Below are positions 8,242-33,288 of a stretch of 37,660 bases of DNA, piece by piece (the stretch's first letter is position 1; each line of letters begins with the position of its first letter). The DNA comes from Sandaracinaceae bacterium. GTDB lineage: Bacteria > Myxococcota_A > Polyangia > Polyangiales > Sandaracinaceae. Location: assembly GCA_004213565.1 (NCBI GenBank), contig SHBB01000009.1, positions 1-37,660 on the forward strand, given 5' to 3'. The notes under the pieces were generated by a model. The model had not been told where the DNA came from. It saw nothing but the letters and a program-made list of their open reading frames with translations, and did no database searches. A program made the translations under genes and the position numbers.

Positions 8242-8245
<4 letters not shown>

Positions 8246-9405: not shown

Positions 9406-9500
9406 GTTGGCCTTACTGCAGGGGGATCGGGAGTGGCTGCTGAGCGACGTAGGTCCCACCGTTCAGGCCACAAGACGCCCGCCGAAGCGCGACGACGGTA

Positions 9501-9538
9501 AAAAGGAGGCGGCGCGCCCGCGGATGGGCGCGCCGCCT
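9501..9538 (-). terminator. Intrinsic terminator of the EF-G gene
   Basis: A perfect 13-bp GC-rich stem (9507-9519 with 9526-9538, 6-nt loop), followed on the minus strand by CC and then five T residues. It sits 7-44 bp after the EF-G stop codon and before the FIST gene on the same strand, so it should separate the two transcription units. Confidence 0.85.
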
Positions 9539-9544
9539 TCGGTC

Positions 9545-17639: not shown

Positions 17640-18538
17640 TCCCGCGATTGCTGACTCTCGATGTCGTGCCAGTAGGGTCGCAAGAAGCCGTAGCGGTTGC
17701 GCGCGCGCCAGCGGAAGGGGTTGTATCGATGGGAGAGCCCCGCCAGCTCGTACATGAACCCCTGCATCGCTGGCTCCGCATGGAGCTCCTCCATGCGCGC
17801 CCTCATGCGCTCCTGGGCCGCCTGAGAGTCCGGGTAGGCAGCCATCGAAGGACGCCCTCCGCGACCTCCCGGGAGCGTGGACTCACCGTCCGGAGGCTCG
17901 AGAAGGCCCGCGGCCCCTCGCGCTCCGTATCCGACGTGCAACCAGAGCCCGAGCTCTTCGCGGAGCATGTTCTCGACGACGACGGCGAAGTACTCCTCGA
18001 GGTTCGGCCAGCCGACCTGAGGATCGCCCTCGTTCAGGCAGCGGCGAGTGCCCGTCGTCTCGACCCCGAGCGCAGCGCGGAGAGCATGGGCCAGCTCGTG
18101 GCAGAGCGTCGTGACGCTCGGATTCTCAGGCGGCGAGTGGCAGGGCGACAGCGCGTCCACGAAGATGCGACAGTTTGTGCCACGGCCGGTGCCTACCCCT
18201 GGGTACAGGGGAAGACCGCGCGCTGTTGCATCTCTCACGTCGTTGGGCGCACATAACCCAGCAGAGTTGTCTGACCACGGTTCACGGTAGATCGTCTCGT
18301 AGCTGTCATGGTGTGTCAGGACCACCACGGTGTTCTGCAGGGCGCCCACGAGATAGCGTCCAACAAGTGTGTCGGTGAGCAGACGGAGATCGCGCCCGCA
18401 CCTCATCGCCCAGCCCATGTCGGCATCCTCGAACTCCGCCCGGTAGTCGTTCGCGTCGATGGGGATGTGGGGCGGCAACCGAAGGAACTGGAGCTCCGGG
18501 TACTGGCGGATGAACGAGGAAGGGCGTGTACCGGTCAC
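17630..18538 (-). CDS. HELAH zinc metallopeptidase, probable T6SS effector (M91-like)
   Basis: A 302-residue protein from GTG 18538 (GGAGGGG just upstream). The zinc-binding motif is CHELAHA with H147, E148 and H151. A second conserved segment, NLEEYFAVVVENMLREELG at about 179-197, would supply the third ligand. The C-terminal NPFRWRARNRYGFLRPYW is also typical. This layout matches M91-like zincins found as secreted effectors. The reading frame is open far upstream, but that part is only the antisense of vgrG. It is divergent from vgrG with a 171-bp gap and is followed by an overlapping lipoprotein gene. Effector status is inference from family and location; the target is unknown. Confidence 0.75.
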   Translation of the reverse strand: MTGTRPSSFIRQYPELQFLRLPPHIPIDANDYRAEFEDADMGWAMRCGRDLRLLTDTLVGRYLVGALQNTVVVLTHHDSYETIYREPWSDNSAGLCAPNDVRDATARGLPLYPGVGTGRGTNCRIFVDALSPCHSPPENPSVTTLCHELAHALRAALGVETTGTRRCLNEGDPQVGWPNLEEYFAVVVENMLREELGLWLHVGYGARGAAGLLEPPDGESTLPGGRGGRPSMAAYPDSQAAQERMRARMEELHAEPAMQGFMYELAGLSHRYNPFRWRARNRYGFLRPYWHDIESQQSREWD

Positions 18539-18709
18539 GACCCCTCCATCGTGTCCCAGCCAGCGAGGTTGCGCGAGAAGTTTCGCCAAGTCGGCGTGCG
18601 GTTTCGGCTCGCGCAATCGCAAGCATCCGCTACGCTCGGCGCGCTCGTACGATTCTCGGAAACCTGCCCGAGCTCGGGTCGAAGAGGATCGCTGCCGAGG
18701 GGAGCACGG
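18539..18709. promoter_or_regulatory. Divergent promoter region, effector and vgrG
   Basis: This 171-bp gap must hold the promoters of both the minus-strand metallopeptidase gene and the plus-strand vgrG operon. TACGCT (around 18632) and TACGAT (around 18649) on the plus strand are possible -10 boxes. No clear -35 or sigma-54 motif was found. Confidence 0.35.
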
Positions 18710-21286
18710 ATGAGCGACGACCGAGAGGACGGGGCGGAGGCCGCCGCGAATGCCGTCGAAGGGCTTCGATCCACCGCTGAGGGGGCGGGCGCGTCGGAGG
18801 TCGCGGACGCGGCCCGCGTCGTCCAGGGCGCGAGCGAGGCGGCGAGCGCAGCTCAGGGGCTGAGCCGCGGGGACGCGGGGCAGGCGCTGGAGGGAGCCTC
18901 GGGCGCGTCGCGCTATCTCGTGCCCGACGATGAGGTCGCCAGCGTGCTGGAGAGCGCGGGGGAAGCCGGAGACCTGCTGGAGCAGGGCGTCGACGCGCTC
19001 GGGGGCCTCACGGGCGCGACGCGGAACCCGGTGACGTTCCATCTGGAGGTCGCCGGGCTCGACGGCCGCTGGGGCGTGACGGACGTGTCGCTCCACGAGG
19101 CCCTCAACGCGATCCCGCACGCGCGCATTCGCGCACGCTATGACGGCCGGCCGGAGCGGGCGGAGCTGATGCTGGTCGAAGCGAAGCTGTCCATCGAGCG
19201 CGGCGAGCAGCTGCGGGAGTTCAAGGGCCTCGTCTTTCGCGCGCGCATCCGAGACGACGGCGAAGGGAGCGAGATCGATCTTCAGATCGCGCCGGCCGCG
19301 AACCACCTGGCGCACACGCTGAAGAGCCGAATCCACCAGAAGCTGACCGTCGTCGAGGTGATCGTCGAGACGTACAAGGACATGCTCGGCGACCTGCAGC
19401 GATCGGTCGACCAGGCCAACCTGGTCCGGACCTACGAGCAGCGCGAGTACATCGTCCAGTACCAGGAGACCAACCTCGCCTTCATCTCGAGGCTGGCCGA
19501 AGAAGAGGGCATCTTCTGGTTCTTCGATCACGAAGCCGACCGAGAGGTGCTCGTGCTCGCCGACGCCACGGGCAACCTCCCACGCGCCAGGCCCAACGAC
19601 GATGGGATGGCGCCGTTTCACCACGACGCACGCCAAGCACCGGACGACGAGGCCGTCACCAGCCTGAGCTTCGAGGAGTCCTTCGGCGCCACCGACATAG
19701 TCGTCCGTGATTACGACTGGACCAACCCGACCCTGGACGTGATTGGCAAACAGACGGGCCTGGGCACGAGCGACCCGGCGGGCGAGATCTACGACCACAC
19801 GGAGGCCGTGGTCATGCACGGCTTCAACGGGACGCAGTACAAGGGCAACACGGCGATCCAGCAAGCGAAGATGCGCGCTGAGCGCCTCGCGCTCGACCGG
19901 CAGCGCTGGACCATGACCGCGACCGTGGTCAGCGCGCTCCCGGGGCGCTCGCTCGAGGTCGAAGGGGCGCCCGACGACCTCGATGGGAACTACGTGATCG
20001 TCGCGGCCACCTCTCACGGCAGCGCTACCGAGGGGCAGTCGGGGACGTGGCAGTCCTCGATGGACGTCATTCCGAGGTCACTGCCGTATCGGCCGCCTCA
20101 CCGCACGCCGCGTCCGATCGTGCATGGGCCCGACACGGCCATCGTCGTGGGCCCGGAGGGCTCGGAGATTCACACCGACGAGCACGGCCGGGTGAAGGTG
20201 CGGTTTCACTGGGACCGGGAGCACGCGCCCCGCGAGAACGACTCATCGTGTTGGATGCGCGTGGCGCACAACTGGGCCGGCCCAGGGTTTGGCACGTTCT
20301 TCTTGCCGCGTGTCGACATGGAGGTGGTGGTCAGCTTCCTCGGCGGCAACCCCGACCGTCCCATCGTCACGGGCTGCGTCTATCACGGCACCAACCGCGC
20401 TGGTGTGGAGCTCGAGGCGAAGAAGACGCAGAGCCTGATCCGGACGAAGTCGTCGCCGCGGAGCGATGGCTTCAACGAGATGCGGTTCGAGGACGAGGCG
20501 GGCAACGAGTTCATCTACGTTCACGCCGAGAAGGACTACAACGAGGAGGTCGAGCACGATCACTCGACCCACGTGAAGAACAACCAGTCCAACACGGTCG
20601 ACGTGGACCAGACCGAGACGGTCGGGAACGACCAGCGGATGACCGTGCACAACGATCGCTTCCACACCGTCGACCACGACGAGTGGGTGGAGGTCGGGCA
20701 CTACCGCTCGGAGATCGTGCACGGCAACGAGGACTGGGTCATCGAAGGCCAGCGCGCCCGCACGGTGAAGGACGACGAGCTGCTCACGGTCCAGGACGGA
20801 CACCGCAAGATCCATGTCCAGACGGGCAAGGACCTCGAGACGTTCGACGGCGGCCGCGAGGTGAAGGTCAAGGCGTTCGACAACCTGAAGGTGCTCGACG
20901 GCGCGAACCGCAACGAGCACATCACCGGGCAGTACAACGTCACCGTCGACGGCGCGCACTACACGCTGGTGCAGGGCGAGACCGAGAAGTTCACGCAGGG
21001 CAGCCAGAAGACCTACGTCGAGTCGGCGAAGGAGGTGCACGCCAAGACCGGCAGCTCGCATCTCCTGATGAAGAACGACGGCAAGATCAAGCTCGCGGGC
21101 GACACGAAGATCGAGCTCGAGGTCGGCGCCTGCAAGATCGAGATGACGACGGAGAAGATCACGCTCTCCGCCGGATCGTCGTCGATCGAGCTCGGTCCGA
21201 GCGGCGTGACCACGTCGGGCTCCACCGTCACCTCGTCCGCGCAGACCATGAACGAGATCACGGGGCTGCTCGTCAAGATCAACTGA
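18710..21286 (+). CDS. vgrG: T6SS spike protein VgrG with alanine-rich N-terminal extension
   Basis: An 858-residue VgrG, the trimeric tip of the type VI secretion tube. Residues 1-105 are an Ala/Glu/Gly-rich, probably helical extension absent from standard VgrGs. The gp27-like region starts at NPVTFHLEV (about 106). The gp5-like OB fold has DEHGRVKVRFHWDRE and FLPRVDMEVVVSFLGGNPDRP. From about 600 a run of short repeats of the type N-x-T-V-x-V-x-H/N-D forms the triple-stranded beta-helix spike, ending with the DUF2345-like tail (KIKLAGDTKIELEVGACKIE). GAGGGGAGC precedes the ATG. It heads an operon with the adaptor and PAAR-RHS genes, which it should carry. Confidence 0.95.
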   Translation: MSDDREDGAEAAANAVEGLRSTAEGAGASEVADAARVVQGASEAASAAQGLSRGDAGQALEGASGASRYLVPDDEVASVLESAGEAGDLLEQGVDALGGLTGATRNPVTFHLEVAGLDGRWGVTDVSLHEALNAIPHARIRARYDGRPERAELMLVEAKLSIERGEQLREFKGLVFRARIRDDGEGSEIDLQIAPAANHLAHTLKSRIHQKLTVVEVIVETYKDMLGDLQRSVDQANLVRTYEQREYIVQYQETNLAFISRLAEEEGIFWFFDHEADREVLVLADATGNLPRARPNDDGMAPFHHDARQAPDDEAVTSLSFEESFGATDIVVRDYDWTNPTLDVIGKQTGLGTSDPAGEIYDHTEAVVMHGFNGTQYKGNTAIQQAKMRAERLALDRQRWTMTATVVSALPGRSLEVEGAPDDLDGNYVIVAATSHGSATEGQSGTWQSSMDVIPRSLPYRPPHRTPRPIVHGPDTAIVVGPEGSEIHTDEHGRVKVRFHWDREHAPRENDSSCWMRVAHNWAGPGFGTFFLPRVDMEVVVSFLGGNPDRPIVTGCVYHGTNRAGVELEAKKTQSLIRTKSSPRSDGFNEMRFEDEAGNEFIYVHAEKDYNEEVEHDHSTHVKNNQSNTVDVDQTETVGNDQRMTVHNDRFHTVDHDEWVEVGHYRSEIVHGNEDWVIEGQRARTVKDDELLTVQDGHRKIHVQTGKDLETFDGGREVKVKAFDNLKVLDGANRNEHITGQYNVTVDGAHYTLVQGETEKFTQGSQKTYVESAKEVHAKTGSSHLLMKNDGKIKLAGDTKIELEVGACKIEMTTEKITLSAGSSSIELGPSGVTTSGSTVTSSAQTMNEITGLLVKIN

Positions 21287-21299
21287 GGGGGGACAGGCG

Positions 21300-22715
21300 A
21301 TGGAGTCGATGGCGCGCCCCCTGCGGGCGCTGCACGAGGACGTGTCGTGGTTCGCGCGCGCGACGGAGGTGAAGCTGCTTCATGTCCGCTGCGGCGCCGC
21401 GCTGCGCAAGAGCGCGCTGAAGCTGCTCGCGGCGGGCGAGCTGAGCCTCGACAATCAGAGCCCGTTCGTTGTGCTCGAGGACGCGTGGCGGCTGGCGGAC
21501 GGCGGCTGGCGGGTGCGCGCCCAGCGGCTCGCCGAACACTGGGAGGGCCGGCGCAGGGTGCTCAGCGAGGAAGGCATCGAGCTCGGCTCGCTCTCCGGGC
21601 GCGCGCCCGCCTCGCCCGACCCCCACGCCGCGTTCGGCGGCTGGGTGAACCTCGTCCTGCAGTGCGTGCGGCCGCCGCTCGAAGGCCTCGTCATCGTGCT
21701 CGCGCCCGCGCTCATCGAAGACGCGGGGCTGTTCGAAGCCGAGCTGCGTGAGCTCGTGATGCAGCCTGAGCTCGCCGCCGCGCGCTGGATCGTGATGGAC
21801 ATGCAGGAGGCGCCGCTCGCGGCCCTGCACGAGGAGCTGGGGGCCCGGGCGATGCAGAACGTCAGCGTCCGGGACGACGCGGCCTTCGCGCAGGACCTGA
21901 ACGCCATGATGGCGTCGGTCGACCCAGAGCTGCCCGGGCCCGCGCGCGCCGGAGCGGCCTGGCCTCGCGGCATCATCCCTCCACCTCGCAAGGGCGACCG
22001 AACGCCGACGGTGGAGCAGCAGGCCGAGGTCGACGTCGAGCTGGCCGCCGCGGGCATGAGCCCCGCGCTCGCGGGCTCGCAGGGCGCGCGCATGCAGCAG
22101 TACATGCTCGCCGCGGCCGTGCAGATGAAGCTCGGCAACGGAGAGCTCGCCATTCAGCACCAGCGCGAGGCGTGTCGCATCGCGGCCGAAGCGCAGGGAG
22201 AGCGCGAGCTGGTGCTGCAGTGGATGGTGCTCGCGGGGTACGAGCTCGCCCTCGGTCGGGAGGACGAGTCGTATCGCCAGTACGCGGGCGTCGCGCAGAA
22301 GGCCGAGGAGCTGGAGCTCCACCTCGAGCGCGCCCAGGCCGGTCTCGCCCTGGCGCTGATGGACGCGCGCGCGGGCCGACACCCCGACGCGGCGGGGCAG
22401 TACGCGCGGAGCGCCGAGCACGCGCTGAAGGCCAACGCGACGGGGCTGGCCATCGAGTGCTGGCGGCTCGCGGGACAGATGGCTGCCGAGGCGCAGCTCG
22501 GAGACCGGGCCACCGAGTGCTGGCGCCAGGCGATCGAGCTGGCCGAGGGCGCGGCCCCCGACGTGGCCAAGACCTCGAGCGCCCCGCGGGCCGCGCGGGA
22601 GCTGGCTGCGCTGCTCCGAGCCCGCGGGCTGGGCGCGCAGGCCGAGTCGCTCGAGCACCAGGCCAACCGCATCGAGCAGGGCGACACGCGCGCCGCGGCG
22701 GAGGCGCTCCTCTGA
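21300..22715 (+). CDS. TPR-like protein between vgrG and PAAR-RHS, probable effector adaptor
   Basis: A 471-residue protein. Residues 1-230 form an alpha/beta domain without a recognised family (FVVLEDAWR, LEGLVIVLAPALIEDAGLFEAEL, ARWIVMDMQEAPLAAL). A Pro-rich hinge (IPPPRK) follows, and residues 260-470 are a chain of about 30-40-residue Ala-rich helix pairs like tetratricopeptide repeats (for example LAIECWRLAGQMAAEAQLGDRATECWRQAIELAEG). It begins 13 bp after vgrG and its TGA overlaps the RHS ATG (TGATG). Position between the spike and the RHS effector is where T6SS loading adaptors such as DUF4123 or DUF1795 proteins sit, but this is neither. Adaptor role is inferred. Confidence 0.75.
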   Translation: MESMARPLRALHEDVSWFARATEVKLLHVRCGAALRKSALKLLAAGELSLDNQSPFVVLEDAWRLADGGWRVRAQRLAEHWEGRRRVLSEEGIELGSLSGRAPASPDPHAAFGGWVNLVLQCVRPPLEGLVIVLAPALIEDAGLFEAELRELVMQPELAAARWIVMDMQEAPLAALHEELGARAMQNVSVRDDAAFAQDLNAMMASVDPELPGPARAGAAWPRGIIPPPRKGDRTPTVEQQAEVDVELAAAGMSPALAGSQGARMQQYMLAAAVQMKLGNGELAIQHQREACRIAAEAQGERELVLQWMVLAGYELALGREDESYRQYAGVAQKAEELELHLERAQAGLALALMDARAGRHPDAAGQYARSAEHALKANATGLAIECWRLAGQMAAEAQLGDRATECWRQAIELAEGAAPDVAKTSSAPRAARELAALLRARGLGAQAESLEHQANRIEQGDTRAAAEALL

Positions 22716-25700
22716 TGCTCGCCTCCAAGAACACCGACGGGGTCATCGGCGTCGACATCCACTGGGAGATGGTGCCCATGCCCGCGCCCGTCCCCACGCC
22801 GCTCCCGAACCCCTTCGTGGGCCTGATCATGGACCCGCTCGGGTTCGCCGTCGGCGCCGTGATCAGCGCGGTGATCTCCGAGCTCTGTGGCGCACCTCCG
22901 ACCGGCGCAGTCATCGTCAACTTCCTCCCGGCGACGAACACCGGCACCGAGGCGATGGGCTTCGGGCACATCCTCATCCCGCCCGGCACCTCGTGGGCGC
23001 CGATGCCGAGCGTCATGCCCCTCGTCCTCCCGAAGGAGACGCCCTCGGGGCCCGACAACCCGGCCATGCCCGACGACGACGGCATCGTGGTGACCGGCAG
23101 CCTGACCGTGCACGCGATGGGCTCCAACTTCGCGCGGTTCGGCGACTTCGTGATGAGCTGCAGCGAGCCGGTGCGGCTCCCGAGCTCGACCATCCTCGCG
23201 ATGCCCAAGGGCCTCCCCGTCCTCGTCGGCGGCCCGCCCACCCTCGACGCGATGGCCGCGCTCGGCGCCTTCATCCGCACGAAGTGGATGAGCCACCAGC
23301 TCAACAACCTGCTCTCGCGCGTCGTCGGCCCCGGGCGCCTGCGCAACCTCCTGAGCCGCGCCATCTGCTTCCTCACCGGCCACCCCGTCGACGTCGCGAC
23401 CGGTCGCGTCTTCACCGACCACGTCGACGTCGAGCTGCCTGGCCCGCTGCCTCTGAAGATCGAGCGCGTCTACAACTCCGGCTTCGCCGACCGCGCGGGC
23501 GCCCTCGGCCACGGCTGGAGCCACAGCCTCGAGCAGAAGGTCTGGCGCGAGCGCGGCAAGGTCGTCTACCTCACCGAGGACGGCCGCGAGGTCGAGTTCG
23601 ACACCTTCGACTTGCCGAACCACCGCATCGAGCCGGGCGAAGAGGTCTACTACCCGATCGATCGCCTCACCCTGAAGTGCCGCGGCGAGAACACCTGGGA
23701 GGTCTGGACTTCGGACGGCCTCTGCCACGACTTCGAGCCGCTCCCCGGCGGCGATGCTGGGGTCGCGCGACTCACGCGCATGCGGACCCGCGACGACCAC
23801 CGCATCGAGCTGCACTACGACGAGCACGCGCGCCTGAGCTGGCTCCGCGACTCGGGCGGCCGCCGCGTCCTCTTCGAGAACGACGCCCACGGCCGGCTCA
23901 CCAAGATCAAGCTCCCCGTCTCGCGCGGCGAAGGTCACTTCGAGCACCTCCGCTACAGCTACGACGAGCGCGGCGACCTCGTCCGGGTCACCGACGCCGC
24001 GGGCTCGTTCTGGGAGTTCGAGTACACCTCGCACCTCCTCACCCGCGAGACCGATCGAGAAGGCCTCAGCTTCTACTTCGGCTACGACGGCATCGGTCAG
24101 GGCGCCTACTGCATCCGCACGTGGGGCGACGGCGGCATCTACGACCACGAGATCCTCTACGACAAGCAGGGCGGGACCACCTGCGTCACCAACTCGCTCG
24201 GCGCCGTCACCACCTACCGCCAGAACGAGATCCACTGCGTCACCGAGGTCATCGACGCCCACGGCGGCGTGACGAAGTACGAGTACGACCCGCACAGCCT
24301 CCAGCGCACGGCGGAGACCGACGCCCTCGGCCACACGACCCGCTGGGCCTACGACCGCCGCGGCAACACCACGCGCATCGAAGCCCCTGACGGCGCGGTG
24401 ACCACCCTCGAGCCCCACCCCCGCTTCGACGCGCCCGTCCTCGCCGTCGACCCCAACGGCGGCGAGTGGCGCTGGGAGTACGACGACTTCGGCCGCATCA
24501 AAGGCCGCGCGAACCCCTTCGGCCACTGGACCCGCTACGAGTACGAGGACAAGCGGCTCGCCCGCGCCAGCACCCCGGGCGGCGCCGAGACCGCCCTCTC
24601 CTACGACGAGTCCGGCAACGTCGCGCGCGTCATCACCGCCACCGGCGCCGAGGTCCGCTTCGAGCACGATCGCCTCGGCCGCGTGGCCAAGCTCGTCAAC
24701 CCGCGCGGCGGCGTCGAGCGGCGCCAGTACGACGCGCTCGGCAATCTCATGCGCGTCGAGGAGCCGCACGGCGTCGTCCGCACCTTCACCTACGACAAGG
24801 AGCAGAACCTCACCCGCGCCGTCGACAGTCTGCGCGACATCTCCTTCACCTACGCCGGCTACCACCGCCTCCACGAGCGCCTCGAGGCCGGCACCGCGAT
24901 CCGCTTCCACTACGACACCGAGGACCAGCTCCTCGCGGTCGAGAACGAGCACGGCGAGCGCTACCGCTTCGACCTCGACGAGCGCGGCCTCGTCCGCAGC
25001 GAGACGGGCTTCGACGACTTCACCCGCCGCTACACCCGCGACGCCGCCGGCCGCGTCACCCAGGTCGACAAGCCCAGCGGCCGCGTCGACCAGCTCACCT
25101 ACGACGCGGCCGGCCGCATCACCGACGTCGCCCACTCCGACGGCACCTTCGAGCGCTACCGCTACCGCGCCGACGGCTCGCTCATCGAGGCGAGCAACGA
25201 CACGGCCGAGGTCCACTTCGAGCGCGACCCTCTCGGCAAGGTGGTCCGCGAGCTCACCCGTCTGCCCGACGGAACCGAGCACTGGGTCCGGAGCGGCTAC
25301 GGCCCCGACGGCCACCGCGTGCGCGTCGAGTCCAGCGACGGCCACATGCACCACATCCACCGCAACCTCGCGGGCGACGTCACCCGCGTCGAGCTCGAGG
25401 GCAACCGCTGGCACGTCGACTTCGAGCGCGACCCTCTCGGCCTCGAGCTCAGCCGCAGCTTCCCCAACGGCATCACCTCGAGCTGGGAGCGCGACGTCGT
25501 CGGCCGCCCCATGCGCCGCACCGTCACCTACCAGGGCGACAAGGTCCTCGACGACAAGCGCTACGTCTGGGAGGGCGACGACCAGATCCGCGCCATCCTC
25601 GACCCCCAGCACGGCGACGCCCACTACGAGCACGACGCCCGAGGCCGCCTCGTCTGGGGCCGCATGCCGTGGGGCGAAGAACAGCACCGCGCCATGGACG

Positions 25701-26761
25701 CGGTCGGCAACATCTTCCGCAGCCCCGACCTCTCCGACCGCCGCTACGGCAAAGGCGGCCGCATCGAGGAGGCCGACGGCACCGCCTACCGCCACGACGA
25801 AGACGGCAACCTCGTCGAGAAGACCGACGTCCTCGGCGACACCACCCTCTACCGCTGGAACGGCGCCGGCATGCTCGACTCCGTCCTGCTCCCCGACGGC
25901 AAGGAGGTCTCGTTCGAGTACGACGTCATGGCCCGAAGACTAGCCAGAGTGTGTTCGGAGCGTTGCACCGATGGCAGTCAAACGAGGTATACGTGGGACG
26001 GAAATCAACCTCTGGCTGACTACGACAGCGAAATAGGCATGCGGGCCTGGTTGTTCGAGCCTGACGGTCTCGCCCTAGTCGCAAGCCTGGATGGTGACCG
26101 AATCGATGGCGCCTTGACGGACCAGATCGATGTGCCGACGCAGCTCTTCGACCAGGCCGGTGAGTGCGTCTGGTCCGGCTTCCTGGACGTGCACGGGGAG
26201 GCGGCGCTTGCGACTGCGGCGCTAGCACTTCCGTTCCGGTGGCCCGGCCAGCGCTGGGACGAAGAACTCCGCCTGTCATACAACCGGCACCGATACTATT
26301 CTCCCCCAACTGGCGCCTTCGTCTCGGTAGACCCGCTCGGACTCAGCGGGTCAATCAGCCTCTTCGCCTACCCGGCAGACCCGCTCAGCTGGGCGGATCC
26401 TCTGGGCCTCAAGACCTGTGCTCAGGCTGCTCGCGACAACCGCCGGGGACAGTTCTTCGAAGCCGTCATCGGAGACGATGGTGTCTTGCGCGTCGTGTCG
26501 GGCCCCCTTTCTGCCCAGGAAGCGGTCGCTCGGCTGCGACGCATCATCAGGGACGGTGGGCACGGCGGCATCTACACGGTCGCTTCGCGCGACGCGCGGT
26601 CGCTAGCTCGCCGTGTGGGAAGGGGCAGAGCCGGAGGCAGGGCGCTTCATGACGTTGCGCATCTGAATCGTGCATCGGGGTCCCGAAGCGGCAACTATTC
26701 ACACTTCCACCCTCCGGGCAGACCGGGCGGACACGTTTGGTATGGAACTCCACGATCATGA
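22715..26761 (+). CDS. PAAR-RHS polymorphic toxin of the T6SS
   Basis: A 1348-residue effector. Residues 1-185 are PAAR-like (PMPAPVPTPLPNPFVGLIMDP; LPVLVGGPPTLDAM), forming the spike tip. A DUF6531-type segment follows (TGHPVDVATGRVFTDHVDVE), then YD/RHS repeats to about 1230, which build the beta-cocoon that encloses the toxin. Two DPLGL motifs near the end mark the autoproteolysis boundary. The last 116 residues are the toxin, which I do not recognise; it is basic in the middle and ends with HFHPPGRPGGHVWYG. Translation is coupled to the adaptor (TGATG) and to the next gene (ATGA). Codon use changes sharply at about 25930, suggesting that the 3' end was acquired by recombination. Confidence 0.93.
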   Translation: MLASKNTDGVIGVDIHWEMVPMPAPVPTPLPNPFVGLIMDPLGFAVGAVISAVISELCGAPPTGAVIVNFLPATNTGTEAMGFGHILIPPGTSWAPMPSVMPLVLPKETPSGPDNPAMPDDDGIVVTGSLTVHAMGSNFARFGDFVMSCSEPVRLPSSTILAMPKGLPVLVGGPPTLDAMAALGAFIRTKWMSHQLNNLLSRVVGPGRLRNLLSRAICFLTGHPVDVATGRVFTDHVDVELPGPLPLKIERVYNSGFADRAGALGHGWSHSLEQKVWRERGKVVYLTEDGREVEFDTFDLPNHRIEPGEEVYYPIDRLTLKCRGENTWEVWTSDGLCHDFEPLPGGDAGVARLTRMRTRDDHRIELHYDEHARLSWLRDSGGRRVLFENDAHGRLTKIKLPVSRGEGHFEHLRYSYDERGDLVRVTDAAGSFWEFEYTSHLLTRETDREGLSFYFGYDGIGQGAYCIRTWGDGGIYDHEILYDKQGGTTCVTNSLGAVTTYRQNEIHCVTEVIDAHGGVTKYEYDPHSLQRTAETDALGHTTRWAYDRRGNTTRIEAPDGAVTTLEPHPRFDAPVLAVDPNGGEWRWEYDDFGRIKGRANPFGHWTRYEYEDKRLARASTPGGAETALSYDESGNVARVITATGAEVRFEHDRLGRVAKLVNPRGGVERRQYDALGNLMRVEEPHGVVRTFTYDKEQNLTRAVDSLRDISFTYAGYHRLHERLEAGTAIRFHYDTEDQLLAVENEHGERYRFDLDERGLVRSETGFDDFTRRYTRDAAGRVTQVDKPSGRVDQLTYDAAGRITDVAHSDGTFERYRYRADGSLIEASNDTAEVHFERDPLGKVVRELTRLPDGTEHWVRSGYGPDGHRVRVESSDGHMHHIHRNLAGDVTRVELEGNRWHVDFERDPLGLELSRSFPNGITSSWERDVVGRPMRRTVTYQGDKVLDDKRYVWEGDDQIRAILDPQHGDAHYEHDARGRLVWGRMPWGEEQHRAMDAVGNIFRSPDLSDRRYGKGGRIEEADGTAYRHDEDGNLVEKTDVLGDTTLYRWNGAGMLDSVLLPDGKEVSFEYDVMARRLARVCSERCTDGSQTRYTWDGNQPLADYDSEIGMRAWLFEPDGLALVASLDGDRIDGALTDQIDVPTQLFDQAGECVWSGFLDVHGEAALATAALALPFRWPGQRWDEELRLSYNRHRYYSPPTGAFVSVDPLGLSGSISLFAYPADPLSWADPLGLKTCAQAARDNRRGQFFEAVIGDDGVLRVVSGPLSAQEAVARLRRIIRDGGHGGIYTVASRDARSLARRVGRGRAGGRALHDVAHLNRASGSRSGNYSHFHPPGRPGGHVWYGTPRS
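25930..26758 (+). other. Acquired 3' cassette of the RHS gene: core end plus toxin
   Basis: Up to about 25928 nearly every codon ends in G or C. From the Ala-Arg-Arg codons at about 25930 the gene uses AGA, CTA, ATA, AAT, CAA and GTA-type codons freely. The change falls inside the RHS core, about 480 bp before the final DPLGL, and the frame is intact. The part after 26411 encodes the 116-residue toxin. This looks like a homologous exchange within conserved core sequence that brought in a new core end, toxin and immunity gene together. Confidence 0.55.
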
Positions 26762-27306
26762 GCCGAGTAACAGCTTTCCTACTCAAGGGGGCGCCGAAGC
26801 GCGGCGTCGAAGGATTGACCCGTGTTGCGACAGATGCGCTGCGGGATGCCTACATCAGTGGTGAGTGCCGACCACGCGTTGCGCCGCCCTCGCCCTTTGT
26901 GCGGCTCATAGACAGTGAAAGGACGACCCCTCCACTGCGGCTTTTCATCGCCGTGGCCGACGAGGATGTCGGGAAGCTGACGGGCACAAGAGTGATCTTA
27001 CCTCTGCTGGAACCGGCCGGACTGTGGCGTCCGGGGCCGGTAAGCGGTCGCAACTTCATGGCACTCGCCACCGAGGGCATGGAGGATCTCGCTGAACGAC
27101 TGATCTTGGGGCTAGACGATCTCCTTCCCTATGGGTGGATCGGGATCTGGAACGCGGTCGCTGCCGGCTCATCGGGCGTACCCGCCCCAAGCGGGTCTAT
27201 AGGTAGTCGGCAGCGGCCTCACTTCCGGGGCCCGGTCGGAGCGAACGAAGTGGTGTACTTCGAGGGTCGTCACCGACAAGGCGGGTCCAGCCTCCCCTTC
27301 ATGTGA
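26758..27306 (+). CDS. Probable cognate immunity protein of the RHS toxin
   Basis: A 182-residue protein of no recognised family. ATG 26758 overlaps the RHS stop as ATGA, the tightest possible coupling, which is how immunity genes are placed in polymorphic toxin loci. Predicted structure is mixed alpha/beta (PLRLFIAVADEDVGKL, TRVILPLLEPAGLW, DLAERLILGLDDLLPYGWIG) with no signal peptide or membrane segment, so it should neutralise a toxin acting in the cytosol. Codon use is as relaxed as in the toxin segment, which suggests that they were acquired together. An in-frame ATG at 26737 inside the RHS gene is less likely. Confidence 0.75.
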   Translation: MSRVTAFLLKGAPKRGVEGLTRVATDALRDAYISGECRPRVAPPSPFVRLIDSERTTPPLRLFIAVADEDVGKLTGTRVILPLLEPAGLWRPGPVSGRNFMALATEGMEDLAERLILGLDDLLPYGWIGIWNAVAAGSSGVPAPSGSIGSRQRPHFRGPVGANEVVYFEGRHRQGGSSLPFM

Positions 27307-27324
27307 GCGCGAGAGCAAGCTCCA

Positions 27325-27441
27325 CTCATCCAGGCGAGCAACGACGCGGCCGAGGTCCACTTCGAGCGCGACCCTCTCGGCAAGGGGGCTGTGAGCGAGA
27401 TCCACGGGGCTGCGATCGAGACCCAAACCCGGGGGCTCTGA
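27325..27441 (+). pseudogene. RHS core fragment 1
   Basis: Positions 27325-27385 match the RHS core at 25181-25241 with only two mismatches, without gaps and in the same direction (coding IQASNDAAEVHFERDPLGK). The frame then runs through an RHS-like but different sequence (AVSEIHGAAIETQTRGL) to a TGA. There is no start codon context. It is a remnant of an RHS gene or cassette left between two immunity-like genes. Confidence 0.8.
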
Positions 27442-27520
27442 CAAGCCTGATTGCGGCAGCTCGGCGTTCCAGCCAAGTCGCTGGAGACCCGCATGCTCGC
27501 CCGGGCGATTCGTCGGGTGG

Positions 27521-28003
27521 ATGATTTCGTCGCGACGATGGCTGGAATCCTCGGCCTACGAGATCGAGTTCATCGGCGAGGTGGCTGTGGTGGCTAGTCT
27601 CGGGCGGAGCGTGCGCAGGTTCCTTGAGGAGCGCGCATTTGACAGTCTACAGCTGGGGTCCGCGTTCGTTCTTCCGGATTCTTTGCCCCATGATCTGTGG
27701 CGCTACAGCAACCCAAGCGGTGGGCGTTTCATTGCGAAGGCTGGGAACCTTCAAGTCGGAGTATTTCAGGGCTGCGTCGAGTATTTTCATTTGGAGTTCG
27801 AGGACGGTGATTGGCCGGTCGACCTCTCGCCCATCCGAACTCTGGATGTGAGTGCTTCCGATACCTACCTGAGTTCGTCCCTCTCGGACTCGGTGTGTCA
27901 TCTTCGCGATGATCACGGTATTCAGCTGAAGACGCGCCATGCGGTACTCTTTCTCAACCAGTCCGGAGATCCCATCGCTCTCTCCCTGTCTGGCGACCGG
28001 TGA
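27521..28003 (+). CDS. Orphan immunity-like protein 2, unrecognised
   Basis: A 160-residue acidic protein with low-GC codon use unlike the genes on either side of the locus. It has no signal peptide; strands and helices alternate (YEIEFIGEVAVVASLGRSVRRF, FIAKAGNLQVGVFQGCVEYFHLEFEDGDWPV, GIQLKTRHAVLFLNQSGDPIALSLSG). The acidic surface and the location between two RHS core fragments suggest the immunity gene of a lost toxin. No ribosome binding site is obvious before ATG 27521, so expression may have depended on a toxin gene that is gone. Confidence 0.6.
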   Translation: MISSRRWLESSAYEIEFIGEVAVVASLGRSVRRFLEERAFDSLQLGSAFVLPDSLPHDLWRYSNPSGGRFIAKAGNLQVGVFQGCVEYFHLEFEDGDWPVDLSPIRTLDVSASDTYLSSSLSDSVCHLRDDHGIQLKTRHAVLFLNQSGDPIALSLSGDR

Positions 28004-28051
28004 TCACTGTGCTGTGGAGCCGTTGCCGCCTCGGCTCCAACCTGGCGCTCT

Positions 28052-28140
28052 GATGAGTACGAGGAAGAGCGCGTCGCCGGCGCCACGACGGCCGGCGGGG
28101 CCGAGGCCGCCCTCGCCCTACGAGCCGGGCTGCACGAGAC
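28052..28140 (+). pseudogene. RHS core fragment 2, divergent and frameshifted
   Basis: One frame reads EYEEERVAGATTAGGAEAAL, aligning without gaps to the RHS core EYEDKRLARASTPGGAETAL encoded at 24538-24597 (13 of 20 residues identical). One extra base then shifts the frame at the next Tyr codon (CTACGAGCC against CTACGACGAG). DNA identity is lower than for fragments 1 and 3, so this piece comes from a different RHS gene. The rest of the 376-bp gap (28004-28379) shows no gene I can support; 28140-28330 might be decayed toxin sequence. Confidence 0.6.
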
Positions 28141-28379
28141 GCTCGTCGCACGCAGCGCCCGCACATCCGGCCGTTGCAGGGTCCCAGGAGAAGGGTCTGG
28201 TGCGTCGGTACTCCGCGCTTCGCGCGCTGGTCTGATCGTGTGGCTCACGAGCGTGGAGATCTTCGGGTACCGGCAACGGGAGAAGTACTACCCACGAACG
28301 CCACGCCGACGCAGCCCCTCGATGAACTCATGAAATGGTTCCAGCGAGAGCGCCGGACGACGAGGGGAGGATGCTCGAG

Positions 28380-28898
28380 ATGATCTGGCGTGGGCACGTG
28401 ACAACAGATGCGAACGGACTCTTCATGTACGATCCAACGGTGTTTCGCGCTGCCTACGGTGCATCCTTGCGGGATGGTAGAAACCTTCTGCAGGAGTACC
28501 TCTCGGATGATTGCGGCGACGAAGCTCTGCGCTCAGGGTTGGTGGTACCTATCCTAGCCATTGACGCCGACACCTATTCCGTGAGCGTCTCCACGGAACC
28601 AGCCGTGCTCGAGAACATCGTTTGCACGAATGCGGTATACGCACTTAGAGTTGAGGAGGGAGTCGTGGTCGCAGACATTGCGCAGCTCATGGAATGGTCG
28701 GACGCACACGCCCGTGAGGGCTTCGCCGCGCCTGTGCCATGTGGAATCTACGCGGTATCCGTCGCGGGGTTCCAGCGACGGGTGGCCGGCGAGATTATCG
28801 ATGCCGGCTATGTCTTTACCCTGGAGAAGCAGCCCAGGTTGCCAGCCGTCACCGCAGACACCGGACACCCGATGCGGGTTCTGGACGTGTTCGAGTAG
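28380..28898 (+). CDS. Orphan immunity-like protein 3, unrecognised
   Basis: A 172-residue acidic protein of no recognised family, without signal peptide. ATG 28380 is chosen because GGGGAGG lies 9 nt upstream; in-frame ATGs at 28371 and 28335 are possible. The N terminus (MIWRGHVTTDANGLFMYDPTVF) and the strand pattern in the middle (LVVPILAIDADTYSVSV, YALRVEEGVVVADIAQLMEW, GIYAVSVAGFQRR) indicate a compact alpha/beta or all-beta fold. Codon use is relaxed (GTA, ATA, TTG). It sits between RHS fragments 2 and 3, so the immunity role is inferred from context only. Confidence 0.6.
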   Translation: MIWRGHVTTDANGLFMYDPTVFRAAYGASLRDGRNLLQEYLSDDCGDEALRSGLVVPILAIDADTYSVSVSTEPAVLENIVCTNAVYALRVEEGVVVADIAQLMEWSDAHAREGFAAPVPCGIYAVSVAGFQRRVAGEIIDAGYVFTLEKQPRLPAVTADTGHPMRVLDVFE

Positions 28899-28983
28899 CC
28901 TTCGTACCTGCCACGGTCGAGTCAGAACAGCGTTTCCCGACAACGGTCCAGGCAACGGATCACTAGCCGCACGATAGCGTGAG

Positions 28984-29214
28984 CACCTTCACCTACGACA
29001 AGGAGCAGAACCTCACCCGCGCCGTCGACAGCCTGCGCGACATCTCCTTCACGTACGCCGGCTACCACCGCCTCCACGAGCGCCTCGAGGCGCGCAGGCG
29101 ATCCGCTTCCACTACGACACGAGGACCAGCTCCTCGCGGCCGAGAACGAGCACGGCGAACGCTATCGCTTCGACCTCGACGAGCGCGGCCAGCTGGACGA
29201 GCTTGGGCGCATCA
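28984..29214 (+). pseudogene. RHS core fragment 3, nearly identical to the intact core
   Basis: 28984-29190 aligns to the RHS core at 24781-24989 with very few substitutions and two single-base deletions (near 29090 and 29120) that break the frame. After the shared GAGCGCGGCC it continues with a different RHS-like phrase (DELGRISSDPGR) at 29197-29232 and stops soon after. The near identity points to recent duplication or recombination with the neighbouring rhs gene. It lies just before immunity-like gene 4. Confidence 0.85.
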
Positions 29215-29324
29215 GTTCGGATCCCGGGCGAACACACACTACTGGCAGAGGATCGTCATCCGAGTGGGACTCGACATAGAGCTTGCAAGCCGATGACAAC
29301 CTATCTGCCGACACCAGACGCACT

Positions 29325-30233
29325 ATGAAGGCGCCTGAGAACTCGAGTCGAGACGAGAGTGACGGCGTCCTGGCTTCGGTTGTGGGATGCCTTCGCGAGC
29401 ATTCAACGATCACAAGACAAACCCTCTCGGGGGGACCCAGATCAGATCAGCAACTACGCCTCGCAGCCGGGTGGCGCCGATTGCTCCGGCTCCGAGCGTT
29501 CTTGGGCATCCAGCTAGGCCATCTGGAACGGCAAGCACGGCGGCTAGACGTGCGTCGCTCTCTTGGCGCCCTGGACGATGCACTGTTTGAGGGGGCGGTC
29601 GAGGACGGGGACGCGACGGCGGTGCGCTCTGCTATCAAGCGGTTGAGTGCGGTGGAGAGCGTTTCGGTCCTGGAGGCTCGAAGGCAGCTGCAACTCGCGC
29701 GGGAGCGTTGGTCGCCCTCGCTCGAGCCAACCACTCCTGACGAACTCCGCGTCGATGTTATTCGTATCGGCCCTGGCGCGGTCGCATCCGGGCGCTTGTG
29801 GCCCGCTCTTCCATCGGTGCGGCTCGACCAGCGTGATGCGCTGGCCGATGCCCTCGAAGAGATGGAACACGTGCTGTGTGTCGACGGCTCCTTGGCGAGC
29901 GTCCTGGTGTGGAGCGCGCCTAGTGGGAGTTGGTACGCGAGACCCCTCACGAACAAGAGATCTGTCGGACCGCTGTTCGCCAGAGCTTACACCCTTGCGG
30001 CCCTGCCGAGCGCTGGGCGAGACCTCAAAGTGGAGCAACGCCCCGTACGTACGTCGCTCGCGACGCCCACGGGACCGGAGCCCGCATGGAAAGTCTGGAG
30101 TGACGGCGCTCGGCAACTCTGGTTGCTCGAGGACCTCACGTTCGCCGCGGTGGTCGAGGAACGGTCCACGTATACGCTGGGTGGACGTCGCTGGGAGCTA
30201 TCGGAGGCGCTTCAAGGCTTTGATCGGCTCTGA
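29325..30233 (+). CDS. Orphan immunity-like protein 4 or cassette cargo, unrecognised
   Basis: A 302-residue protein from ATG 29325 (316 from TTG 29283). Residues 20-140 are helical and Arg/Leu-rich (WRRLLRLRAFLGIQLGHLERQARRL, DALFEGAVEDGDATAVRSAIKRL); the second half is strand-rich with several Trp (SVLVWSAPSGSWYARPL, WKVWSDGARQLWLLEDLTFAAVVEERSTYTLGGRRWELSEAL). No known domain, signal peptide or membrane segment was recognised. It is longer than most immunity proteins, so it could instead be another type of cassette gene. Context (next to RHS fragment 3) is the only hint to function. Confidence 0.6.
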   Translation: MKAPENSSRDESDGVLASVVGCLREHSTITRQTLSGGPRSDQQLRLAAGWRRLLRLRAFLGIQLGHLERQARRLDVRRSLGALDDALFEGAVEDGDATAVRSAIKRLSAVESVSVLEARRQLQLARERWSPSLEPTTPDELRVDVIRIGPGAVASGRLWPALPSVRLDQRDALADALEEMEHVLCVDGSLASVLVWSAPSGSWYARPLTNKRSVGPLFARAYTLAALPSAGRDLKVEQRPVRTSLATPTGPEPAWKVWSDGARQLWLLEDLTFAAVVEERSTYTLGGRRWELSEALQGFDRL

Positions 30234-30467
30234 GTACCGAACCATCACGCGAGCGGCGCTCAGCTCAGCGAGCGTTCACCGGACCTCGGGGGGTACCAGG
30301 ACTTCTTGGCCGGTTCGATGTCTCCCGGCTTCCTACTCTGCTGTCTTCAACGGTGGCCGGACGGGTTCTCCGTCGTGAGGTCCGACCTGAGCGGCGGGGT
30401 GGTGCTCGACGTGGTCCTCGACGACCCGGTCGATGGAGACTTCTACGAGTTCGAGCGCTGGCCCTGA
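30234..30467 (+). pseudogene. Possible remnant of a further immunity-like gene
   Basis: Directly after the TGA at 30233 the same frame stays open to a TGA at 30465-30467. From about 30276 it reads SPDLGGYQDFLAGSM and ends GDFYEFERWP, which looks like protein (acidic, aromatic tail) more than noise. A 49-residue ORF could start at ATG 30318. It may be a truncated gene of the same cassette series, or a short gene. The gap 30468-30526 holds nothing recognisable. Confidence 0.35.
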
Positions 30468-30526
30468 GGACCGTCCAACCGCGACCGTCGAGTGATCGTG
30501 AGGTGGGCCAGGCGCGGTGGCGCCGC

Positions 30527-30532
30527 TACCGT
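30527..30532 (+). promoter_or_regulatory. Candidate -10 hexamer TACCGT
   Basis: TACCGT ends 7 nt before the ATG at 30540, with no ribosome binding site between; a leaderless start is possible. Confidence 0.3.
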
Positions 30533-30539
30533 GGCGCTC

Positions 30540-31709
30540 ATGCTTCGCTTCGTCCTCGCGGCCGCGCTTCTCTCGGGCTGCTACCTCTCGCATGGACGAG
30601 AGGAGGCCGTCGACGTCGACGCCGGGACCCGCCGGGACTCCGGAATCCGGGTCGACGCGGCGACGCCGGACGCGCGGGTCGAGGGGTGTACCGGAGTGCG
30701 GCTCGCCGAGACGCGGCTGATCGAGGGCGCGCCGAGCGTGACGCCGCGGCTGGTCGCGCTGCCGGGCGGAGACGTGGGGGTGGTGCACGTGTCGCGGGAC
30801 GGCTCGCCGACGCGGGTTCGGTTCGATCGGCTCGACGCCACGCTGACGCCGATCTCGAGCGGGACAGTCGCGACCGACTCGTTCACGTGGGCGGAGCCGG
30901 TGTCGCTCGACGGCGCGCTGTTCGTGGCGTGGGGGCTGGCGGGGGACGAGGGGAGCGTGCTGCAGCCGGTCGACGCCGACGGAGCACCGAACGGGCCGCG
31001 CTCGATCGTGCCGCTCCAGCATCCGTCGGTGCTGCGGGCGGCGGCGGGCTCGCTCTTCTGGATGGCGTTCGACATGCGCGAGGACAACACGCTCGTGATG
31101 GCGCACGTCGAGCCCTCGGGGGAGCTCTCGCATCCGCCCGCGAGGGTGCCGCTCGGGCGGTATGGCTCGGGTCACGGCGCGATCGCGCGGCCGGATCGCC
31201 GCTCGCACGTCATCACGTACCCGCGGGAGGGGCCGCGTGGGGTTCGGAACGCGTACGTCAGCGCGCTCGACGCGACGGGCGCGCTCGGGCCGGAGCGCAT
31301 GCTCGGCGAGGACGGCGATCAGCTCGCGCTGCCGGTGCGCCTCGGGGAGCGCCTCGTCGTCGTTCACCACGGGGACGCGCTGGTGCTGCAGGTGACCGAC
31401 GCCGACTCGCTCGAGCTGCTCGAGCGCTTCGTACACCCCGCGCGTGACAGCCGCCCCTTCTTCGTCGGCGCGCTCGGCGGCCGGCTCCTCGTGGGGCACG
31501 CGACGGAAGGCGAGCTGCGCATGGACGACTTCGGCGCGGAGCTCGCGACCGAGCACGCGCGGATCGTCATCCGCCCCGACGGCCCGCGCGTGAACGGCCC
31601 GAGCGGCAGCGTGCTCGAGACCCCCGGCGCGCTCTACCTCGCGGTCGGCACCGTCAGCGGCACCGAGACCCGCCCGCTCATCGCGCGCATCGTGTGCACC
31701 TTCGACTGA
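30540..31709 (+). CDS. Lipoprotein, uncharacterised, probable beta-propeller-like
   Basis: A 389-residue lipoprotein. MLRFVLAAALLSGC is the signal with lipidated C14. An Asp/Ala/Arg linker follows (VDVDAGTRRDSGIRVDAATPDA), and then repeated strand units of the form 'VRFDRLDATLTPISSG ... FVAWGLAGDEGSVLQPVDADG ... SLFWMAFDMREDNTLVMAHVEPSG', which suggest a bladed beta structure. It belongs to no family I can name. ATG 30540 is preferred over 30492 because it gives the signal peptide. It marks the return to vertically inherited, high-GC genes after the RHS cassette region. Confidence 0.8.
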   Translation: MLRFVLAAALLSGCYLSHGREEAVDVDAGTRRDSGIRVDAATPDARVEGCTGVRLAETRLIEGAPSVTPRLVALPGGDVGVVHVSRDGSPTRVRFDRLDATLTPISSGTVATDSFTWAEPVSLDGALFVAWGLAGDEGSVLQPVDADGAPNGPRSIVPLQHPSVLRAAAGSLFWMAFDMREDNTLVMAHVEPSGELSHPPARVPLGRYGSGHGAIARPDRRSHVITYPREGPRGVRNAYVSALDATGALGPERMLGEDGDQLALPVRLGERLVVVHHGDALVLQVTDADSLELLERFVHPARDSRPFFVGALGGRLLVGHATEGELRMDDFGAELATEHARIVIRPDGPRVNGPSGSVLETPGALYLAVGTVSGTETRPLIARIVCTFD

Positions 31710-31757
31710 CCCCCATTCGCCGGAGGGTATAGGCTCCGAACCAGGAGGTGCGGGGAC

Positions 31758-33248
31758 ATGAGAAACTTACTTGGTCTGTTCATGGTGGCGTTCGCGTTCA
31801 CGGGGCTGTCGATGCCGATCACGGCCGACGCGCAGGACGTCCTCTACTGTAGAGACGGCAACTCGGGCACGGACGCGATGGACGCCGCGCTCATGGACTT
31901 CACGGCGATGAGTCCGATGGCGACGGTGACGCGAAACCTCGAGGACACGAGCCTGACGGCGTGTGAGACGGCGCTCGCCGGCACCACGTTCGACCTGGTG
32001 ATCGTGGCGGTGCAAAGCAACGGTCCGTACACGACGCCCAACTTCGACGCGCACGTGATGGGTGGGGGGCGCACCATCTTCACGGAGTGGAACCAGGACG
32101 CGGCCAACGCGGCGATGTTCGGAGCCACCTACACGGGCGAGACGAACACCACGACGCTCACCGTCGTGGCGCCGTTCGACGCGGGGCTCACGGCCAACCC
32201 GATCACGCTGATGAACCCCGGCTGGGGCACGTACACGATGACGCTCGCTCCGACGGGAGGCGCCACCTCGATCGCGAGGCTCGGCTCGGGCGCGGGCGCG
32301 GTGCGCTCGGCGAGCGGTCGCACGATCATCAACGGGATGCTCTTCGACACGGGCGGCGCGGACCTGCAGAGGTTCTTCCTGAACGAGATCCGGGCGCTGC
32401 TCGGGCCCGACGCCGACGGCGACGGCGTGGACGCGCCCGCGGACTGCGACGACTTCGACCCGACGGTCTTCCCGGGCGCGCCCGACATGGTGTGTGACGG
32501 GGTCGACAACGACTGCAACGGCACGGCCGACGACGGGTTCATGGGCACCGCCACCACGTGTGGCGTGGGCGCGTGCGAAGGCGCGGGCATGACCACGTGC
32601 ATGGCCGGCGTCGAGGGCGACACCTGCGTCGCGGGAGCGCCGGCCCCGGACGACGCCACGTGCGACGGCGTCGACGACGACTGCGATGGGATGACGGACG
32701 AGGACTACGCCTCCGTCGACACGATGTGTGGTCTCGGCCCTTGCGCGGCGACCGGGACGAGCTCCTGCGTGGAGGGCGTCGAGATGGACACGTGCATGCC
32801 CGGCACGCCGGCGGGCGAGGACACGACCTGCGACGCGATGGACGACGACTGCGACGGCATGGTCGACGAGGCGTTCGTGGGCGAAGCCACGACGTGCGGC
32901 GTCGGCGCCTGCATGACGATGGTGTCGAGCACCTGCGTCGACGGCATGACCGAAGACGCGTGCGTGCCCGGGACGCCGGCCGCGGACGACTCGACCTGCG
33001 ACGGCATCGACGACGACTGCGACATGAGCGTCGACGAGGACGGAGTCTGTGGAGACACGGACAGCGGCGCGATCGACTCGGACGCGGGGACCGGCGGCGC
33101 CGACGCGGGGACCGATCCGATGGCGGCGGGCGGCGGCTGCAGCTGTCGCGTCACGGGCCCGAGTGACGCCAGCGGTCAGTCCGCGGGCTGGGCGTTCGGT
33201 CTGCTCGGCTTGCTCGGCCTGGCGCTCGTGCGCCGTCGACTCCGCTGA
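31758..33248 (+). CDS. MopE-like surface protein with MYXO-CTERM tail
   Basis: A 496-residue secreted protein. Signal peptide at 1-25 (ending ADA), then a domain of about 190 residues without a known family (FDLVIVAVQSNGPY; GGGRTIFTEWNQDAANAAMFG), which looks like the ThuA/GATase-like 'line-of-sight' folds seen in surface proteins, though I am not sure. Residues 216-430 hold four 'CDGxDxDCxxxxDE' metal-binding motifs, with spacers containing CGVGAC. The end has GGGCSC, a hydrophobic stretch (WAFGLLGLLGLALV) and RRRLR, a MYXO-CTERM sorting signal for cleavage and anchoring at the cell surface. AGGAGG precedes the ATG. Confidence 0.88.
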   Translation: MRNLLGLFMVAFAFTGLSMPITADAQDVLYCRDGNSGTDAMDAALMDFTAMSPMATVTRNLEDTSLTACETALAGTTFDLVIVAVQSNGPYTTPNFDAHVMGGGRTIFTEWNQDAANAAMFGATYTGETNTTTLTVVAPFDAGLTANPITLMNPGWGTYTMTLAPTGGATSIARLGSGAGAVRSASGRTIINGMLFDTGGADLQRFFLNEIRALLGPDADGDGVDAPADCDDFDPTVFPGAPDMVCDGVDNDCNGTADDGFMGTATTCGVGACEGAGMTTCMAGVEGDTCVAGAPAPDDATCDGVDDDCDGMTDEDYASVDTMCGLGPCAATGTSSCVEGVEMDTCMPGTPAGEDTTCDAMDDDCDGMVDEAFVGEATTCGVGACMTMVSSTCVDGMTEDACVPGTPAADDSTCDGIDDDCDMSVDEDGVCGDTDSGAIDSDAGTGGADAGTDPMAAGGGCSCRVTGPSDASGQSAGWAFGLLGLLGLALVRRRLR

Positions 33249-33288
33249 GACCAGGTCCGCCGGAGCGCGCGCAGGCTCCGGCGGACGC
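33126..33288 (+). repeat. 163-bp direct repeat, copy 1 (MYXO-CTERM tail and hairpin)
   Basis: Covers the last 41 codons of the MopE-like gene, its stop and the hairpin after it. Copy 2 at 34605-34767 is identical except for three substitutions and has no gaps. Confidence 0.95.
33255..33286 (+). terminator. Hairpin after the MYXO-CTERM gene
   Basis: A perfect 12-bp stem (33255-33266 with 33275-33286, 8-nt loop) starting 7 bp after the stop codon. There is no T-run, so it may work as a Rho-assisted or bidirectional barrier between the convergent MopE-like and DUF4272 genes. Confidence 0.6.

Follow-up and report, generated by a model that had tools for sequence, protein, structure and literature searches.

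The window analysed here, a 37,660-nucleotide stretch from a Sandaracinaceae bacterium, is the entire contig G000:C706, one of 716 that make up a 9.1-Mb genome. In the window, an intact RHS gene and its coupled, presumed immunity gene are followed by an array in which three internal scraps of RHS core alternate with three long open frames in the same direction. The array is very probably the displaced-cassette end of a VgrG/RHS effector locus. The kept genes are most likely orphan immunity proteins against toxins that the lineage once carried and that neighbours may still deliver; to the cassette history and the immunity function taken together we assign a probability of about 0.65.

Core scraps alternate with open frames behind the intact RHS gene

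The RHS gene and the array behind it have the following features.

22715..26761, + strand: intact RHS gene (Pfam RHS_repeat 4.1e-58, DUF6531 1.8e-26; Rhs_assc_core 8.2e-18)
22715-26398, + strand: RHS core; the border between core and tip lies near 26398
26399-26758, + strand: RHS tip, presumed toxin (SPOR match only, sub-threshold at 0.011)
26758..27306, + strand: imm1, presumed to encode the cognate immunity protein of the intact tip, to which it is coupled (start overlaps the RHS stop as ATGA; no Pfam/NCBIfam family)
27325..27388, + strand: core scrap 1, internal (blastn 95.3% to core 25181-25244, 103 bits)
27521..28003, + strand: imm2, orphan immunity-like gene, 160 amino acids (ATGA overlap with an upstream stop; no Pfam/NCBIfam family)
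28055..28123, + strand: core scrap 2, internal, diverged (blastn 79.7% to core 24539-24606, 59 bits)
28380..28898, + strand: imm3, orphan immunity-like gene, 172 amino acids (ATGA overlap; purine-rich GGGGAGG 9 nucleotides upstream; no Pfam/NCBIfam family)
28980..29190, + strand: core scrap 3, internal (blastn match 28965-29190, 93.0% to core 24762-24989, 333 bits; trimmed after base-level alignment)
29325..30233, + strand: imm4, third orphan gene and weakest immunity candidate, 302 amino acids (no coupled start; no Pfam/NCBIfam family)
30237..30467, + strand: gene remnant, 76 codons, in the imm4 frame directly after the imm4 stop (no Pfam family)

The original prediction had read this region as RHS pieces alternating with long frames in one direction, and this arrangement is confirmed, with three plus-strand scraps in blastn, frames of 160, 172, and 302 codons, and the 76-codon remnant. 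It had also called scraps 1 and 3 nearly identical to the intact core, a wording that here stands for identities of 95 and 93%. The proposed origin of scrap 2 from a diverged core agrees with its identity of 79.7%. As a control, the array was compared with 100 dinucleotide-shuffled cores, which gave 36.5 bits at best, and the best minus-strand match between the array and the real core reached 29.2 bits. Base-level alignment places the true start of scrap 3 near 28980 and reveals two single-base deletions within its roughly 211 bp. All three scraps have both ends inside the core, and none includes the core C-terminal end. Up to the tip border, scraps 1, 2, and 3 lack 1154, 1792, and 1409 bp of core, respectively.

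We then compared the segments between the scraps with 2000 dinucleotide shuffles each, using the length of the longest open reading frame (ORF) and the period-3 signal. The observed ORF length was reached by 79, 40, and 4 of the 2000 shuffles for the imm2, imm3, and imm4 segments, respectively, and the period-3 signals of imm2, imm3, imm4, and the remnant (30237-30464) were matched by none. For imm1, the ORF length was reached by 1 and the period-3 signal by 7 of 2000 shuffles. The guanine-cytosine (GC) contents of imm2, imm3, and imm4 are 0.58, 0.60, and 0.65 versus 0.70 in the core, and at third codon positions (GC3) the orphan genes have 0.66-0.69 versus 0.94; low-GC genes at this place accord with the low-GC tract known behind rhs cores. 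ATGA starts are found at imm1, imm2, and imm3, that of imm3 being partly chosen among other possible starts upstream (its mechanical ORF starts at 28335 and has 187 amino acids). The mechanical start of imm4 is TTG at 29283, giving 316 amino acids. A promoter and terminator scan gave zero promoter-like sites (0.5 in shuffles) and one terminator-like site (2.1 in shuffles).

Related RHS loci show a less decayed version of the architecture

Searching 10 genomes of the family with the C-terminal part of the core gave 22 matches in seven genomes. These represent 18 loci plus the locus of the window in the same-species genome G221, which was not recounted; L073 accounts for three matches and L047 for two. 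As L082 and L083 resemble one locus in two strains, the 18 loci are not all independent. We inspected the sequence downstream of each core with that locus's own core. It extends for at least 3.9 kb in 14 of the 18 loci and is short in L076, L081, L082, and L085; L078 has only 331 bp of core. Clear downstream core pieces are present in five loci, namely the window, L047, L072, L073, and L077. The matches in L086 are all short and weak, so that this locus was not counted, and the other 12 loci have no downstream core pieces.

In L073 (G003:C98), a DUF1963 gene (PF09234, 8.6e-25) without a tip of its own stands behind the RHS gene and its coupled gene. This locus further contains an internal core scrap (729 bp, 89%) and two displaced tips with nuclease-like domains: the first matches UPF0102 below the cut-off (0.0035), the second carries an AHH nuclease domain (7.2e-6); the gene behind each displaced tip has no credible family. 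We take DUF1963 to be an immunity family. It is not mentioned in the passages of Zhang et al. (2012; PMC3482391) on such families, and another role is described for it in part of PMC4275035.

In L077 (G006:C1), a 127-nucleotide, internal, frameshifted scrap is followed after about 0.5 kb by a 171-amino-acid gene with a barstar domain (PF01337, 1.8e-17; PDB barstar, 1e-9; reverse-complement coordinates 7274-7789). Barstar is listed among the immunity families of polymorphic toxins (PMC3482391), and the gene is an independent candidate for orphan immunity that belongs to such a known family. A 204-codon frame that runs across scrap and gap could not be assigned to a credible family.

The displaced tip of L047 (G004:C101) runs through the core end into an unclassified tip, and the following gene matches no Pfam family. 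In L072 (G004:C139), an internal scrap of 1021 bp (99.3%) is directly followed by a gene for 1133 amino acids (scrap and gene at reverse-complement coordinates 4993-9544). We assume the encoded protein to be a combined restriction-modification enzyme, so that here a presumably defence-like gene adjoins a displaced RHS scrap. The related loci have the same architecture as the window in a less decayed state. The cassette history put forward in the original prediction is thus supported by the reality of the scraps, by these less decayed loci, and by the barstar gene behind an internal scrap.

Tip, imm1, and array are nearly identical in two strains

The layout of the window recurs in G221:C100, inside a 13-kb stretch that is 98.2% identical. 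Within this stretch, one block stands out.

25730..30436: block nearly identical between the two strains, comprising core end, tip, imm1, and nearly the entire array (11 mismatches in 4707 bp)

Outside this block, the remaining 8.2 kb or so of 20415-33288 contain 132 mismatches. A segmentation into two rates gained 32.4 log units, whereas the best of 300 permutations gained 10.6 and none was as extreme, a comparison that presupposes an even mutation rate. The block starts in the 3' part of the core and stops about 30 bp short of where the remnant ends. There are two synonymous changes in about 636 sites of imm1 to imm4, compared with 33 in 891 in the core and 23 in 336 in the gene behind the array. 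Counted as synonymous/non-synonymous, the differences are 0/1 in imm1, 1/0 in imm2, 1/0 in imm3, 0/1 in imm4, and 1/2 in the remnant; imm1 to imm4 sum up to two of each kind, and imm2 to imm4 to two and one.

These data suggest that tip, antidote, and array were recently exchanged as one unit. A shared block of this extent fits the published movement of whole arrays by homologous recombination. In Vibrio cholerae, the immunity arrays of the type VI secretion system are described as moving between strains in this way (Kirchberger et al., 2017; PMC5361080).

Six of the 11 block mismatches are clustered at 28005-28074, at the start of scrap 2, together with a single-base indel near 28033. This cluster is perhaps a small conversion tract.

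Homologue and structure searches

We searched plasmids, genomes of relatives and of the phylum, viral contigs, genome contigs, and PDB for relatives of the array proteins. The homologue collections are limited and several of the methods find close relatives only. The scans of viral and genome contigs used imm2 and imm3 as queries with exact 8-residue patterns, and likewise reach close relatives only. For imm2, 96 relatives gave a match in its own genome only, and plasmids gave nothing credible at E up to 1. Five pattern matches in viral contigs and 44 in genome contigs yielded no confirmed case. Among 356 genomes of the phylum, imm2 matched its own genome, G221, and, weakly, G276 (E 5.9e-4) and G347 (8.4e-3). 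The proteins matched in the latter two have 209-232 amino acids and reach 41% over 86 amino acids, with an E of 4e-6 against the 12-kb stretch alone. They presumably are exported, judging from their appearance, and the fetched stretches contain no RHS core match. We took these two matches as chance, although a remote relation may exist.

For imm3, plasmids gave nothing credible at E up to 0.01. Among 377 genomes of the phylum, it matched its own genome, G221, and, weakly, nine others (E 0.0145 to 0.049), and the pattern matches (1 in viral contigs, 24 in genome contigs) gave no confirmed case. No credible homologue of imm4 was found in plasmids; the 356 phylum genomes gave its own genome, G221, and 13 weak matches (E 2.5e-4 to 8.4e-3) that involve shifting parts of the query. 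A stretch of G319 with one of these matches was empty in a scan for RHS core and was also scanned with the array genes. The remnant matched its own genome, G221, and three others weakly (E 0.002 to 0.005) among the 356 genomes. Its match in G167 lies opposite a gene that we take to be coiled-coil-like, beside a presumed secretion-ATPase-like gene, and a match of imm1 in G351 lies opposite a gene that is presumably histidine-kinase-like. The latter came from a joined-query search that scored two candidates per genome and is insensitive. Single-sequence AlphaFold2 models had mean predicted local distance difference test (pLDDT) scores of 36.8 for imm2 and 32.5 for imm3, and searches of PDB sequences with imm1 to imm4 returned no credible match (best E 0.21).

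Interpretation of the array

The array very probably arose by tip replacement. The RHS gene would receive a new tip, consisting of a toxin and its antidote gene, which would push the former tip downstream together with its own antidote gene and part of the former core. This step is the published model of Rhs tip displacement (Jackson et al., 2009; PMC2935791). In the Vibrio arrays, a new module is described as displacing the old effector while the immunity gene is kept, and the 3' end of the effector can be shifted back (PMC5361080). Later deletions would then strip the 3' part of the core and the toxin at each of the three places, leaving a scrap and a downstream gene; we infer this last step ourselves. 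Toxins would accordingly have stood at the three places, and protection would probably be the reason for which the genes were retained. The immunity reading of imm2 to imm4 is suggested by their place, size, and composition, by two ATGA starts, and by the loci L073 and L077.

Several observations weigh against this account as a whole. imm2, imm3, imm4, and the remnant have no homologue beside any toxin, and no credible one at all, in the collections searched. imm4 has no coupled start. Codon periodicity is absent from the stretches between scrap and gene, where 362, 1510, and 1679 of 2000 shuffles were as high, and these stretches match no Pfam family; hence toxin ends cannot be recognised in them. 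The ratio of non-synonymous to synonymous change (dN/dS) of the orphan genes is unreadable because the block is almost identical in both strains. In L077, a toxin of unknown type may lie between the scrap and the barstar gene.

The ATGA overlaps had suggested that the stretches between scrap and gene are themselves toxin ends. As these have neither a period-3 signal nor a family, we retain this idea as a mere possibility, which is further weakened by scraps 1 and 2 being out of frame with the frame that ends at the ATGA overlap.

The same history may have left genes that are non-functional debris, open because too little time has passed. Scraps 1 and 3 retain identities of 95 and 93% to the intact core, so the events must be fairly recent; comparison of the two strains reveals no sign of selection; and the remnant demonstrates gene decay at this locus. 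On the other hand, scrap 3 has acquired its two single-base deletions in about 211 bp while the 634 codons of imm2 to imm4 have none, a weak contrast since the frames were picked as open. We consider the debris explanation unlikely. Less likely again is that the frames are unrelated cargo in a recombination-prone stretch behind RHS. The one-direction alternation with core scraps, the ATGA starts of imm2 and imm3, and the barstar and DUF1963 genes that occupy this position in related loci all speak against cargo; the lack of an immunity family match, the size of imm4 and its uncoupled start, and the scrap in L072 followed by its large, presumably restriction-modification-like gene speak for it. 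An assembly artefact at the repeated RHS core, which can break assemblies (a 70%-identical core in G004 stops at a contig end), is effectively refuted by G221, where the array sits with the same layout within an 81-kb contig and therefore is not a misassembly.

If the kept genes are immunity genes, the locus is an RHS-anchored case of an effector displaced and an antidote kept, outside Vibrio and Serratia and in a little-studied bacterium, and provides three candidates for immunity proteins that have no known relatives. The sharp drop in divergence over just the tip and the array would then give a clear-cut natural example of the joint movement of a weapon and its archive of antidotes. A possible, though doubtful, extension is a toxin-trimmed immunity archive, in which repeated deletions would have removed each old toxin and kept antidotes of undescribed families. 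The resulting 4.7-kb unit of live tip, antidote, and archive would spread between strains as one recombination package, anchored on the left in the RHS core and on the right at the array end. A recipient would thereby gain a new weapon plus old immunities in one step.

Comparison with known systems

Displaced tips, tipless core fragments, orphan immunity arrays, polyimmunity loci, and array transfer are all described in parts of earlier publications (PMC2935791, PMC5361080, PMC10539506, PMC3482391, PMC12247911). What sets this locus apart is the lack of any recognisable old toxin, together with the three undescribed genes left in it. A partial coverage of the literature on Rhs orphan immunity, Myxococcus, and Sandaracinus type VI secretion did not turn up a description of this locus.

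In Vibrio cholerae, orphan immunity arrays without toxins are accompanied by effector remnants (PMC5361080). The window resembles them in the presumed immunity genes, whose effectors would be gone, and in the effector remnants; at its head stand an intact RHS gene and its coupled gene, where the Vibrio arrays have an intact effector-immunity pair. Different from the Vibrio arrays, its genes have no known homologue, its anchor is the RHS core, and internal core scraps remain. In the Serratia Rhs1 locus, a gene behind the Rhs-immunity pair protects experimentally against the toxin of another strain (PMC10539506). Genes directly behind such a pair, a presumed one in the window, are common to both loci, whereas the window has core scraps between the genes and no known cognate toxin, and is known from sequence alone. 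The original prediction held that orphan modules usually keep the toxin; this is only partly right, as the toxin-free arrays of Vibrio cholerae and the orphans of Serratia depart from it.

Jackson et al. (2009; PMC2935791) described dissociated rhs tips formed by C-terminal displacement, as well as tipless core fragments in two Escherichia coli strains. The window shares with dissociated tips core fragments that stand behind an intact rhs gene, run in its direction, vary in length, and are similar to its core (near-identical in the published case), along with a lower-GC tract. Dissociated tips as described there generally retain the core end and a recognisable tip. None of the three fragments in the window runs to the core C-terminal end with a tip.

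Heterogeneous polyimmunity loci contain several recognised immunity superfamilies (Zhang et al., 2012; PMC3482391). The window likewise has a row of several presumed immunity genes that are not related to one another, but their families are not recognised, imm1 to imm4 being without any Pfam or NCBIfam match. Rows of orphan immunity genes also make up the rAID arrays of gut Bacteroidales (PMC12247911). These arrays are associated with recombinases, for which no targeted search was made in the window.

Setting of the locus and other differences between the strains

Two further genes precede the RHS gene, and all three run in one direction.

18308..21286, + strand: VgrG gene, mechanical ORF with predicted start (Pfam Phage_GPD 3.6e-50, Gp5_trimer_C 1e-30, Phage_base_V 2.1e-15)
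21300..22715, + strand: gene for 471 amino acids between VgrG and RHS (no credible Pfam/NCBIfam family)

The array is thus headed by VgrG and RHS genes with a coupled gene, while tip and imm1 have no confident family, the tip having been scanned against Pfam and NCBIfam. The presence of VgrG and RHS suggests a type VI-like locus. The RHS gene had been labelled PAAR-RHS; Pfam finds VgrG domains and RHS repeats at the locus and no PAAR family in the RHS protein, so that this label remains that of the original prediction.

Positions 17633-20164 of the window have no nucleotide match in G221, where about 2.6 kb of different sequence takes their place. In the 250 bp of the VgrG gene that follow 20164, 93 positions differ from G221. 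An exchange between strains seems to have affected the front of the VgrG region.

On the other side of the array, 33126-33288 and 34605-34767 form a 163-bp direct repeat (98%) that encodes a hydrophobic, arginine-ended tail, which we take to be sorting-signal-like. G221 has one copy and is without the roughly 1.5 kb between the copies, a difference that reflects an insertion or a loss through recombination between the repeats. Finally, 36460-37660 aligns with itself at many offsets with about 64-73% identity and is a tandem-repeat gene.

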